A DNA stretch of 64,000 nt, from the NCBI RefSeq assembly GCF_022133705.1, contig NZ_JAKNHJ010000009.1, positions 36,748 to 100,747 on the forward strand, read 5' to 3'. Source of the DNA: Varibaculum cambriense (GTDB lineage Bacteria > Actinomycetota > Actinomycetes > Actinomycetales > Actinomycetaceae). Below are positions 3,316 to 7,007 of this stretch, piece after piece; position 1 is the stretch's first letter, and the number at the start of each line of letters is the position of its first letter. A model generated the notes under the pieces. That model made no database searches, was not told the origin of the DNA, and saw nothing but the letters and a program-made list of their open reading frames with translations. Made by a program: the position numbers and the translations under genes.

Positions 3316-3529
3316 CGCTTCTCCTTTAGTGATCGCAAGGTTCGTCTTCCCCAACGGCCTGTGCACACTACAGAGTGATGACACGCGGTGTCTCAGTTTC
3401 TATTTTGCCCTCGATAGCGATTTTCAACAACCCCAAAAGCCTCTGACCGGCAATTTTGTGACTACTGAGGCCAATGTGGCACCTGTGGTTTACCGATCGA
3501 GAGAAAACACGAGAAGAGGCTTGAGCGAT

Positions 3530-3639
3530 AGCTCGGGGGCTGGGTTTGATCCGAGCAGGTGCGGTGGGCATAAGAATTCGGAAAACGCCGCTACGTTTTC
3601 CGAATTCCTGGGCAGGAGGACAAACCCAGCCCCCGCGCT
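3530..3639 (+). repeat. Two-tier hairpin element, type A copy 1
   Basis: Outer stem: 3530-3548 pairs with 3621-3639, 18 of 19 positions. Inner stem: GAATTCGGAAAACG at 3574-3587 pairs perfectly with 3594-3607 around a six-base loop. The unpaired strands between stems are 3549-3573 (ATCCGAGCAGGTGCGGTGGG then CATAA) and 3608-3620 (CTGGGCAGGAGGA). These two strands recur almost unchanged in the other A copies while both stems change. Confidence 0.8.
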
Positions 3640-3677
3640 AACTAACAGCCACCAGGCTCATAGCACGGGTCGAGGTC

Positions 3678-3696
3678 GGGAAAAGATACGAGAGGG
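3678..3696 (+). repeat. Polypurine linker motif, copy 1
   Basis: GGGAAAAGATACGAGAGGG lies between elements A1 and B1. It recurs with one change (GGGAAAAGATGCGAGAGGG) at 6822-6840 between A2 and B2, and in shortened form before A2 at 6683-6696. It marks the 5' boundary of the type B unit. Confidence 0.65.
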
Positions 3697-3709
3697 GGCT
3701 TGAGCATAA

Positions 3710-3816
3710 GCGTGGAGGCGGATTTATGCCGAGGGGTAGGCTCCGGGCACTAAATCCGTGAAAATGCCAAAGCATTTTCCGGATTTCGGGGCGCGAGGCA
3801 AAATCCGCCTCCGCGC
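3710..3816 (+). repeat. Two-tier hairpin element, type B copy 1
   Basis: Outer stem: GCGTGGAGGCGGATTT at 3710-3725 pairs with 3801-3816, with one G-T pair. Inner stem: 3752-3767 pairs with 3772-3786, with one bulge. The strands between the stems are 3726-3751 (ATGCCGAGGGGTAGGCTCCG then GGCACT) and 3787-3800 (CGGGGCGCGAGGCA), conserved in the second B copy. Architecture parallels type A, but the internal-loop sequence is different. Confidence 0.8.
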
Positions 3817-3839
3817 TCCCCACAACAAGCTTTTACCAG

Positions 3840-4331
3840 CTACAGACCTTTTTCGCGAATCTCTTTAAAGGCTTTCCGACGCGTTAACCGATCGAGGCGA
3901 TCAAGATAAAGATGACCATCTAAGTGGTCACATTCATGCTGAATGCAACGCCCCATAAGCTCTTCGCCTTCGACCACTTTCGGCTTGCCATCCAGGTCAA
4001 TCCCTTCGGCACGCGCATACCAGGCGCGCTGACAGGGGAAGAACAGTCCCGGCACCGACAGGCAACCCTCGTCGCCATCTTGGTATTCGTCTTTTGAAAC
4101 CTCTACCAGACGGGGATTAAGAATATAGTCGACTTCCCCGTCAATGTTCCAGGAGAAAGCCCGCAGCCCCACGCCAATCTGATTAGCGGCCAGCCCGGCA
4201 CGCCCATCGGCATCTACCGTTTCTAGCAAGTCTTCTACCAACTGTTTTATATGTTCATCGATTTCGCCCACCGGTTCACAGGGGGTGCGCAAAATCGGAT
4301 CTCCGATTACTCTGATTTCTCGAAATGCCAT
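3840..4331 (-). CDS. def: Peptide deformylase
   Basis: 163 residues, the usual length. It removes the formyl group from the N-terminal methionine of nascent proteins and is a cytoplasmic metalloenzyme. All three family motifs are present: GLAANQIG (46-53, variant of GxGLAAxQ), EGCLS (88-92) with metal ligand Cys90, and HECDH (132-136) with metal ligands His132 and His136 and catalytic Glu133. The start ATG is three bases after the proS stop, so the two are co-transcribed. Downstream lies the A1/B1 hairpin island. Confidence 0.97.
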
Positions 4332-4334
4332 TTC

Positions 4335-6200
4335 CTATTCCTCCTCGCTGCCCGCTGCCGCCGCAGCCGGAACGATTTTTTCTGCCCGCGCATAGGCTTC
4401 CGCGAGATCCTGGTGCACCTGGTCATTTACATATTGGAAGGCATCTACAACTGCGATTTCACGGCGTTCACCAGTGGCACGACACCGTACTTCCACGGTT
4501 CCTTCTTTCAATCCGCGCCCGATCACTACCAGCCAGGGCATGCCCAGCAGTTCCGCATCCTTGAATTTAACCCCGGCAGAGACTTTCTTGCGGTCATCGA
4601 TCAAAGTATCGATCCCGGCGGCGGTGAGCTGGTCGCCTAGCGTTTGCGCGGCCTCGAAAAGTTCTGTCCCTTTGCCGGTCACCAGTGCATGCACTTGGAA
4701 GGGCGCCACATTAGTTGGCCATTTCAGCCCGACCTCGTCGTGGTATTCCTCGGCGATAGCGGCCATTACCCGGGAAACCCCGATTCCGTAGGATCCCATG
4801 GTTACTACCTGGGATTTCCCGTTTTGATCGAGCACGTTTAGCCCTAGCGCCTCGGAATATTTTGTTCCGAGGGCGAAGATATGCCCGATTTCGATTCCGC
4901 GGGCGGTCTGCAAGGCTCCAGAACCATCGGGAGCCGGATCCCCATCTCGCACTTCCGCAGCTTCAATAAAGCCGTCAGCGCGGAAATCTCTGCCCGCCAC
5001 CAAGTGATAAAGGTGGGTGTCTTCTTTGCCGGCGCCCGCGATCCATTCGGTACCTTCTACTACCCGCGGATCTAGGAGGCAGCGGGGGCTGCCAGAAATG
5101 TTTCCGTCCTCATTAATTTTGCGATCCGGATGGTCTGGCCCGGCGCAGGTAGGCCCAGTAAAGCCCGGTACGATATTGGGGTAGGCGGCCATATCTTCCG
5201 GGGTCGCCATTTCTACGTCTGCCCCCAAGGAGGCTTCGAGGCGCCGCATATCAATTTCGCGATCTCCGGGTACGCCCAGGAGCAGCACTTCCCGTTTACC
5301 ATCGGCATAAGTCGCGGCAACCATGAAGGCTTTCAAAGTGTCAGCTTTAGTCCATGCTCTGCCATCTTCGCGGGGGAAATGCTCGTTCGAGTAATCCACC
5401 AATGCTTCTATAGTGTGTGCACCGGGGGTTTTACGTTCAATCGCGGCGGGAAGTTGCGAATAATCTTGCGGCTCGGGGGCAATAGTGGTCACGGCCTCCA
5501 CATTGGCGGCATACCCGCCCTCGGAGCGCACAAAAGTATCTTCCCCAATAGCACAAGGGAAAATGAACTCTTCAGAGCGCGATCCTCCCATAGCGCCCGC
5601 CATCGCGGAACAAATCACGAAATCTAGCCCTAACCGCGAGTAAATCCGCTGATATGCGCGGCGTTGCTGCTGATAGGATGCCTCTAGCCCCTCGTCGTCA
5701 ATGTTGAAAGAGTAGGCGTCCTTCATAATGAATTCGCGGCCGCGAATCAGACCTGCCCGAGGGCGCGCCTCGTCCCGATATTTTTCTTTGATCTGGTAGA
5801 GGACGACCGGCAGATCTTTATAGGACGAATAAAAGTCTTTCACCAACAGGGTGAACATTTCTTCGTGAGTGGGCGCCAATAGATAGTCAGCGCCTTTGCG
5901 GTCTTGCAGTTTAAACAGGGAGGGCCCGAACTCTTCCCAGCGGTTGGTCGCTTCATAGGGTTCGCGGGGCAACAGCGCGGGGAAAGCTACCTCGAGGGCG
6001 CCGATGCGATCCATTTCTTCGCGTACTACCTGCTCTACGCGCCGAATCGTGCGCAACCCTAGCGGGGTCCACGTATAGATTCCGGGTGCAGCACGGCGAA
6101 TATAACCGGCGCGCACCAGCAGTTTATGGGAATCCACTTCGGCATCTACCGGGTCTTCCCGCAAAGTCCTAACAAAATAAGTCGACATATTGTAAGCCAC
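4335..6200 (-). CDS. proS: Prolyl-tRNA synthetase, bacterial type with editing domain
   Basis: 621 residues. It charges tRNA-Pro with proline. Class II signatures are visible: THEE (111-114), motif 2 around 141-165 (YRDEARPR then GREF-MKDAYSF), and motif 3 with GIGVSR near 475. The segment from about 225 to 405 is the inserted editing domain that hydrolyses mischarged alanyl-tRNA. The C-terminal anticodon-binding domain carries the [11 protein letters not shown] pattern. The start is either GTG 6200 or ATG 6188; neither has a Shine-Dalgarno. A -10-like TAAACT sits seven bases before GTG 6200, so leaderless translation from it is plausible. It forms an operon with def downstream. Confidence 0.96.
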
Positions 6201-6309
6201 GTTCGCCAGTTTAGTAGATGATGCAAAGGAACCTAAACCGCGCCGTTCCGGCAGGAATCAACAATACTTTTTATCCGGATACCGGTGCTAACGCTAGCCA
6301 AAAGTTACG

Positions 6310-6415
6310 CGCGAGCGAGAAGTTTTTCCTCCCGCCCAAAAACTCGCCGATGCCCACGGCATCTGCGAGTTTTACGCCCACCTAACCTGATCGGATAAAA
6401 CTTCTCTCTCGCGCT
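6310..6415 (-). repeat. Two-tier hairpin element, type A copy 3, inverted
   Basis: Outer stem: GCGCGAGCGAGAAGTTTT at 6310-6327 pairs with 6398-6415, 17 of 18. Inner stem: 6340-6355 pairs with 6359-6374, 15 of 16. Read on the minus strand, the internal strands are ATCCGATCAGGTTAGGTGGG then CGTAA, and TGGGCGGGAGGA. These match the A1 and A2 strands closely, although both stems have entirely different sequences. Confidence 0.78.
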
Positions 6416-6533
6416 CGCGGTTACGGCGGTAGCAAGATACGGAACCCCGGGTTGAAGCACCAAGAGCAAACTTGCGTTGACAATTCCTGCAAGGAGCAGC
6501 GCGGGGAAAAATAAAAAGACGGGCGGGTTAAAC

Positions 6534-6660
6534 GGGGAGAGCTTGGTTTTATTCGAGCAGGTTGACTTTATTCAAGTGGTTTCAACTTCAGATACCCGGC
6601 TATTCAAAAGGAAAGCGGTAAGACCCTTGAGCTTAGGAATTCGGTAAACGTCGCTAGGGG
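6534..6660 (+). repeat. Decayed type A hairpin element
   Basis: GCTTGGTTTTATTCGAGCAG near 6550 resembles the outer stem end and left internal strand of A2. AGGAATTCGGTAAACGTCGC near 6637 resembles the A2 inner left stem and loop. The material between is expanded and the right halves of both stems are missing, so it looks like a degenerating copy. Confidence 0.45.
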
Positions 6661-6712
6661 GTTGGGGTTTTCGTAGAGGAGTGGGAAAAGATCGGGCTTA
6701 GGTTGGCATTAA

Positions 6713-6821
6713 GCGGGGAGGATTGGTTTTATCCGAGCGGGCGCGGTGGGCATAAGAATTCGGGAAACGTGGCTACGTTTGCCGAATTCTTGGGCAGGAG
6801 GAAAAAACCAATCCTCCCCGC
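6713..6821 (+). repeat. Two-tier hairpin element, type A copy 2
   Basis: Outer stem: GCGGGGAGGATTGGTTTT at 6713-6730 pairs perfectly with 6804-6821. Inner stem: GAATTCGGGAAACGT at 6756-6770 pairs with 6775-6789, 14 of 15. The left internal strand 6731-6755 differs from A1 at only two of 25 positions, and the right strand TGGGCAGGAGGA is identical. The outer stem shares only its TTT end and some G content with A1. Confidence 0.8.
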
Positions 6822-6840
6822 GGGAAAAGATGCGAGAGGG
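6822..6840 (+). repeat. Polypurine linker motif, copy 2
   Basis: GGGAAAAGATGCGAGAGGG between A2 and B2, matching the linker at 3678-3696 in 18 of 19 positions. A truncated form, GGGAAAAGATCGGG, is at 6683-6696 before A2. Confidence 0.65.
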
Positions 6841-6853
6841 AGAGTGATACTAA

Positions 6854-6961
6854 GCGCGTGGGCAGATTTATGCCGAAGGGTAGGCTCCGGGCGTTAAATC
6901 CGTGAAAATGCCAAGGCATTTTCACGGATTTCGGGGCGCGAGGTAAAATCTGCTCACGCGC
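6854..6961 (+). repeat. Two-tier hairpin element, type B copy 2
   Basis: Outer stem: GCGCGTGGGCAGATTT at 6854-6869 pairs with 6946-6961 with one G-T pair. Inner stem: AAATCCGTGAAAATGCC at 6896-6912 pairs perfectly with 6915-6931 around a two-base loop. The left internal strand 6870-6895 matches B1 in about 23 of 26 positions, and the right strand begins CGGGGCGCGAGG as in B1. The outer stem differs from B1 on both arms. It ends 47 bases before the ispG stop. Confidence 0.8.
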
Positions 6962-7007
6962 GTTACCGGGGTTCCCCGAGTACTTTTCCCACTCCTGCCT
7001 AGAGAAA

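Follow-up and report, generated by a model that had tools for sequence, protein, structure and literature searches.

Hairpin repeats of Varibaculum with site-specific paired stems and a near-fixed internal loop

Three long hairpins in a 64-kb stretch of a Varibaculum genome (Actinomycetaceae; G000:C73:36748-100747, the whole of which we call the window, G000 being its own genome) raise the question of what is selected in a bacterial repeat whose stems differ from copy to copy and whose internal loop does not. The first-pass annotation of the window had described these hairpins as copies of a type A element, with stems that change in compensating fashion around an unpaired, invariant loop, and had proposed selection on a folded RNA or cruciform that binds a ligand or protein. 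We find that they belong to a high-copy family of intergenic repeats built on one plan: a long outer stem that differs by site, a near-fixed internal loop, and an exchangeable inner hairpin. The stems are held by their pairing, the loops by their sequence, and the strand reading ATCCGA is probably the one that folds.

Stems, loop and folding strand

The three type A copies lie where they had been reported, with their conserved loop strands as follows (window positions):

3529..3641, + strand: type A copy A1 (outer stem, fixed loop, inner stem); model R1, 119.4 bits; fold -68.1 kcal/mol, z -7.4
3549..3573, + strand: left conserved strand of A1, ATCCGA..GG..GGTGGGCATAA; from the sequence and per-position conservation in 166 copies
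3610..3620, + strand: right conserved strand of A1, GGGCAGGAGGA; from per-position conservation
6306..6416, - strand: type A copy A3, inverted and with a different inner stem; R1, 89.3 bits; fold
6372..6396, - strand: left conserved strand of A3; from the sequence
6327..6337, - strand: right conserved strand of A3; from the sequence
6711..6824, + strand: type A copy A2; R1, 107.2 bits; fold z -8.7
6731..6755, + strand: left conserved strand of A2; from the sequence and per-position conservation
6792..6802, + strand: right conserved strand of A2; from the sequence

R1 is a covariance model of type A, 112 positions long and built from 60 copies (alignment A2); the genome panel comprised six Varibaculum genomes (G000-G005) and 113 from outside the genus. 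The folds of A1, A2 and A3, each judged against 200 shuffles, beat their shuffles on both strands (z -6.4 to -10.1, 0/200 as good).

The compensating changes in the stems proved strong, and they are found in both stems of type A. Across the 60 copies, both partners vary without loss of pairing in 25 of the 31 base pairs, giving 263 covarying cells against 76.7 +- 8.2 in shuffled alignments and at most 86 when the partner column is slid by one to three; 93.0% of cells pair, against 80.0% shuffled. The outer arms (124 rows, two of them later dropped) form 16.5 of 18 pairs with their own partner and 13.2 with swapped partners. At orthologous sites, 31 pair columns among 51 arm groups hold two differing Watson-Crick pairs, a count that skips groups of poor or unequal register. 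These covariation counts, like the mismatch counts below, take the copies as they stand, uncorrected for relatedness.

The annotation's claim of differing inner stems holds strongly for A3, and A1 and A2 carry the family's commonest inner stem; 144 distinct inner sequences occur in the set of 209 copies that we used for the strand, placement, tag and T-tract counts. Its claim of an invariant, unpaired loop stands in part: the loop is near-invariant, and it is partly paired, with folds and alignments giving TCC/GGA, a T-G wobble, perhaps GC/GC, and a bulged A. In 166 standard-loop copies the linkers vary, but conservation is 98.8-100% at TCCGA, the G tracts and GGGC.GGAGG, a contrast that is possibly inflated because the pattern used to gather most of these copies itself names the fixed letters and leaves the linkers free. 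Of the 32 full-length R1 matches in 461.8 kb, that pattern missed three, all type B. Copies collected instead by BLAST from A1 (n=26) have a left strand invariant at 22 of 25 positions, with variation at 8, 9 and 12, although the anchor of this check selects the commonest subtype. The strand order offers no obvious fit to a kink-turn; a G-quadruplex may form in the loop, since the G tracts are among its most fixed letters.

Which strand folds can be read from the imperfect pairs. On the ATCCGA strand the outer 12 pairs show 62 G-T, 18 A-C and 52 other mismatches (206/209 copies passing a pairing floor) and the inner stem 62, 15 and 50 (209 copies), so that the pooled stems hold 124 G-T against 33 A-C, counts that exceed the independent events because the copies are related. 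The excess is also present over the 144 distinct inner sequences (45 to 13) and in a smaller set of 122 copies with longer stems (101/41 and 28/8). In the loop, left position 23, which faces an always-present G, is T in 152/166 copies and C in 14/166. Strand-symmetric mutation predicts equal numbers of G-T and A-C, so the excess counts against it; because the mismatches favour wobble pairs on the ATCCGA strand, that strand probably folds. As to the annotation's choice between a folded RNA and a cruciform, the folding is upheld, and the wobble bias is easier to reconcile with RNA or single-stranded DNA than with a double-stranded cruciform.

Related types, copies, placement and persistence

Beside type A, the window holds type B copies, type C parts and fragments:

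3684..3704, + strand: left half of a type C element, directly 5' of B1; pattern listing and a weak R2 match (14.0 bits, E 0.27)
3707..3819, + strand: type B copy B1; R1, 61.6 bits; fold
6541..6562, + strand: type A copy, degenerate left part; repeat family D4, 86%
6635..6654, + strand: fragment resembling the inner stem of type A; inverted repeat I7
6677..6996, + strand: type C frame around A2 and B2; inverted repeat I15, arms 6677-6690 and 6983-6996, 14/14 complementary
about 6822-6838, + strand: second type C left half within the frame; pattern rows
6851..6964, + strand: type B copy B2, nested in the type C frame; R1, 60.3 bits

Because the type A model finds both type B copies of the window, A and B form one superfamily; A/B hybrid copies occur, and in type B and the hybrids the closing TCC/GGA becomes GCC/GGC. 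The type C frame closes in the minimum-energy fold of 6670-7003 (z -11.4), and R2, our covariance model for type C, gives the frame no score. Type C is present in 6 of the 119 genomes, all Varibaculum. Its outer stem covaries as well, at 15 of 19 pairs (124 cells against 46.4 +- 5.6 shuffled), and one of its pairs is T-G in 36/43 copies and T-A in 7/43. The inner module of the 54 type C copies is a short hairpin of 28-36 nucleotides (nt) in 43, a module of 93-98 nt in seven, and in four, the window's included, a third module of 132-150 nt with a nested A/B-type hairpin. Inspection of the alignments, rather than a computed motif search, gives types A, B and C a small set of features in common at the beginning of the loop, namely a bulged A, three base pairs and GA dinucleotides that face each other; in type A, fixed G tracts come next. 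In the long type C form a conserved module of about 90-100 nt with motifs such as AGTCGGAAAC or AATCGGATACGT replaces the short inner hairpin (L018:1321-1470, L028:1619-1771, L222:1321-1473 and nine further rows); an Rfam scan of this module at five loci, covering three forms, gave no match.

The further copies that the first-pass annotation suggested looking for exist by the dozen, in all six Varibaculum genomes and by both covariance model and BLAST, and this recurrence excludes a chance origin. R1 matches were present in 6/6 genus genomes. The window's own genome holds at least 91 at E 1e-3 or better. By score, at least 66 reach 50 bits, of which at least 52 score 68 bits or more (type A) and at least 14 score 50-62 bits, a group to which the window's two type B copies belong, as do one partial copy and two of 171 nt; at least 25 fall below 36 bits and mostly represent the inner hairpin read from the other strand. 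In G003, at least 50 matches reach E 1e-6, at least 42 of them above 74 bits. BLAST with type A gave 22-28 pieces in each of the six genomes, echoes of the inner palindrome included, and type B copy B1 likewise matched in 6/6.

Outside the genus, where 31 candidates per genome were scored under stricter filters such that weak relatives could escape, one of 113 genomes (G094) matched R1 at E 0.01. The match is confined to the inner stem (positions 44-88); it is accompanied by two others, at 18.9 and 18.5 bits, and we take it as chance. Among 53 outside genomes, BLAST gave a single 24-base match (G016, locus L007), which we dropped for want of a model match. A pattern scan of one genome per species returned 50 stretches, 49 of them in three genomes (V. 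cambriense, V. vaginae and one recorded as Tissierella sp. Marseille-P2918) and one in a Rariglobus assembly (L105), likewise dropped as it had no model match; pattern row L116 (+) was not an element and was also set aside. The Tissierella record (FQLW contigs among L061-L110) bears Varibaculum repeats, and its name looks wrong. A viral match, L227, resembles the genus copy L080 and thus gives no sign of phage origin, and a search of plasmids for the element found no match.

Some copies have features of their own. Three R1 matches of 171-175 nt (G000:C13:10709-10879, G000:C8:50906-51076, G000:C19:7392-7566) carry an insert of about 60 nt, possibly a further nesting. Many type A copies (L009, L016, L018, L024, L029, L060, L104, L108) are preceded by a common 5' flank like GGTACCAGCGAGCG or GATGCCTGTGAGCG, which is possibly a further module; its recurrence is in part due to some of these copies being orthologous. 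Five of the six genomes have a gene for a 320-aa tyrosine recombinase, presumably of the Xer type, no more than about 300 bases from a type A copy (G000:C3:5569, G001:C4:61266, G002:C6:3857, G003:C1:1256932, G004:C4:192342), probably at one orthologous site.

By our own gene calls, made with a simple codon-usage caller, none of the 209 copies lies inside a gene and 197 are flanked by genes on both sides. Convergent gene ends are favoured: counted once per ortholog group, the elements occupy 44 convergent, 40 tandem and 6 divergent gaps, against a background of 54, 178 and 52. In 35 of the 44 convergent groups the element is nearer to the gene it points at. Neighbouring elements point outward in 51 cases, in tandem in 22 and inward in one once ortholog groups are collapsed (78, 24 and 1 uncollapsed), a layout that is the reverse of ordinary terminators behind their own genes and that fits either elements acting on RNA that comes in from the opposite side or a doublet of the REPIN kind (REPIN, a hairpin-forming doublet of repetitive extragenic palindromic, or REP, sequences). 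For groups lying no more than 80 nt from a stop codon, the strand expected in the mRNA is the complement in 42 and the ATCCGA strand in 12; for type C the corresponding counts are 13 and 2. A classic terminator lies in the first 60 nt at 2/64 convergent ends that face an element and at 17/109 others (Fisher p.011). Two earlier counts are superseded. One on fewer copies (convergent 44, tandem 56, divergent 10; tandem antisense 38, sense 18) showed a tandem bias that vanishes on collapsing, and a less matched terminator count (facing an element 16/163, others 44/131, shuffled 25/131) gave way to the one above.

The sites persist. Of the 209 copies, 165 fall in 50 groups with both flanks common to several genomes. 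Over 166 one-to-one, cross-genome orthologous pairs, unfiltered on their arms, mean identity is.872/.919 for the loops,.846/.816 for the arms,.822 for the inner stems and.60-.63 for the flanks, and between random copies it is.836/.904 for the loops,.717/.709 for 16-nt arms and.766 for the inner stems; a set of 130 pairs filtered for similar arms gives higher values, being selected for them. The loops are thus fixed family-wide and the arms are site-specific yet kept above the level of their flanks, and this speaks for a constraint acting on the site itself. Among 96 orthologous pairs whose arms are similar, 17 have had their inner part replaced (identity <.75), A1 and its G003 counterpart among them. 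It is thus the inner modules that are exchanged, at sites that persist. Nested and half copies also occur, and one site is filled in G000 and empty in G003, the difference being a composite insert with no obvious target-site duplication by eye.

What the elements may do

The elements probably act as RNA, as structured elements at 3' ends, a role that we infer, as we do any binding partner. In the reading that we prefer, at a probability of roughly 40%, they form a genus-specific mosaic of structured intergenic elements (A/B and C) resembling REPs and bacterial interspersed mosaic elements (BIMEs), and supply an RNA 3' boundary on the ATCCGA or AAAAGAT strand. In a transcript that runs towards the 3' end of the gene next to the element, the ATCCGA strand of type A or the AAAAGAT strand of type C would fold as RNA, with the fixed loop held by a common factor or by a compact fold of its own. 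The hairpin would then become the last 3' boundary of that transcript, either by stopping polymerase or by protecting a trimmed end, and would keep read-through from entering the neighbour as antisense. Several results weigh against this reading. The wobble excess is smaller in the orthologous columns (22 including G-T, 11 A-C, 20 other mismatches), and the outer arms of type C show no clear bias (22 to 17, in 35/54 copies). Elements in tandem gaps are split between 21 antisense and 19 sense groups, and lone elements favour neither orientation (6 to 4 in convergent gaps; 8 antisense and 10 sense in tandem gaps). The terminator detector is crude, firing on 57/865 shuffled windows. A T tract follows the stem in 0/209 copies on the ATCCGA strand and 6/209 on the other (background 16/627), so the element is not a classic terminator. 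An extended form, in which families differing in sequence would make up a genome-wide boundary system, each bearing the bulged-A, three-pair and facing-GA signature, set back to back with active strands towards the flanking genes, and stopping or trimming antisense run-in, with outer stems set per site and inner hairpins swapped like cassettes, we consider rather unlikely.

Of the alternatives, the one with the best claim, though unlikely, is that the elements are selfish, a REPIN-like family of hairpins that spread in the form of folded single-stranded DNA by means of some enzyme, with the loop as recognition site and the outward pair as mobile unit. Dozens of copies, outward doublets as in REPINs and BIMEs, nested and half copies, the site filled in G000 and empty in G003, and core exchange between copies would all follow from it, and the strand bias is equally expected of folded single-stranded DNA. 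Orthologous conservation would then mostly reflect slow turnover, an account strained by the 165 copies in groups common to several genomes and by locus-specific arms kept above flank level; the filled site also lacks an obvious target duplication by eye. The enzyme one would look for is an IS200/REP-type Y1 transposase, and PF01797, in which we take the REP transposases to fall, matched none of the six genus genomes and 5/14 control genomes, beyond which only integron integrase was searched for. Quite unlikely, in our judgement, is that it is the complement strand that works, its hairpin protecting or ending the mRNA of the adjoining gene, with the wobble bias a by-product of mutation. Elements that follow a stop codon at short distance and place the complement in the mRNA (42 against 12 groups), and the rarity of classic terminators at such ends (2/64) are what it would predict. 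On the complement, however, the common G-T pairs become A-C mismatches, as would the near-fixed T-G pair of the loop, and the lone elements have no such preference.

Less likely again is an element acting as DNA at convergent gene ends, for example a nucleoid-protein or topoisomerase site as proposed for BIMEs. The enrichment between convergent genes and the mosaic, opposite-orientation layout accord with it, but a double-stranded site would need neither stems that covary nor a wobble bias favouring one strand. The last explanation needs no selection: arms that copy each other by template switching in replication (quasi-palindrome correction) would also change in pairs. That rearrangement does occur is clear from the repeat islands, where copies are nested or hybrid and some (L010, L029) have arms that do not match, yet this process predicts neither an excess of G-T over A-C nor loops conserved above their flanks, and we regard it as very improbable. 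These repeats are an unusually clean high-copy case in bacteria in which folding, and not stem sequence, appears selected, with compensating changes at orthologous sites; for REP-like repeats, of which it has long been asked whether they have a function or merely spread, such a case is of help in telling the two apart. The strict outward layout of three element types, together with their common small motif, makes a common partner or mechanism testable in a culturable genus.

Comparison with known systems

The annotation knew of no named motif that fits, and Rfam agrees, giving no match at gathering scores in the 64-kb window; permissive scans gave only matches far below gathering. Nor did we see a relation to insertion sequences, for which the one transposase family PF01797 was searched. 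As in established structured RNAs, covariation in types A and C goes beyond the shuffled and slid controls. Integron attC sites are imperfect palindromes recognised as a folded single strand, in which structure and unpaired bases are conserved over sequence, and the Varibaculum elements are alike in being imperfect palindromes that keep structure and unpaired bases more than sequence. An integron integrase over the curated cut-off of TIGR02249 was found in none of the six genus genomes and also in none of 14 controls; the same search gave sub-threshold tyrosine recombinases in 6/6 and 14/14. Bidirectional terminators at convergent gene ends stand behind stop codons and have a strong hairpin, whereas the present element lacks a T tract, is laid out outward rather than inward, and has a fixed loop. 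Unlike a miniature inverted-repeat transposable element (MITE), it lacks conserved terminal inverted repeats, its arms agreeing between random copies at.717/.709 and its loops at.836/.904.

A search of the literature found no description of these repeats, most subscription journals being outside its reach. Of the same general kind are the stem-loop repeat families that Cozzuto et al. 2008 (PMC2267715) obtained for 40 genomes from sequence clustering and hidden Markov models, which, as far as the available text describes them, are likewise repeated, intergenic and of common predicted fold; the Varibaculum elements differ from that description, which makes no mention of the genus, in that their stems are largely free and their loop is fixed. 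The closest likeness is to REP, BIME and REPIN sequences, which the portions available of PMC3733652 and PMC2817692 describe as extragenic, high-copy and palindromic, with opposite-orientation dimers, a preference for convergent and unidirectional gaps, and stem variants that keep pairing and include G-T pairs; convergent 3'-end placement is noted for REPs in the former (PMC3733652). The BIME habits recur here, with alternating orientation in intergenic mosaics (outward 51, tandem 22, inward 1) and an extragenic location between convergent or unidirectional genes (0/209 in genes; 44, 40 and 6 groups). The first-pass annotation had set the element apart from REP/BIME repeats by its conserved loop and free stems; the fixed loop set between variable stems does set it apart, whereas stem changes that keep pairing have also been described for REPs. 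REPs of the GTAG and CGTC superfamilies, in the text available, measure 20-40 bp, and the Varibaculum element is about 110 nt. A GTAG or CGTC tag at a fixed place is also missing: GTAG stands on the 5' side in 21/209 copies (chance about 19.5), CTAC on the 3' side in 32/209, CGTC in 4/209 and GACG in 13/209, with no single position above 7/209, and CTAC occurs inside the inner hairpin in 91/209 as part of its commonest loop. Because size, tag and transposase differ from those of REPs though layout and pairing habits agree, we place these repeats as REP/BIME-like but distinct; they stand apart by two variable stems separated by a long internal loop that is nearly fixed, and by an inner hairpin that can be exchanged.

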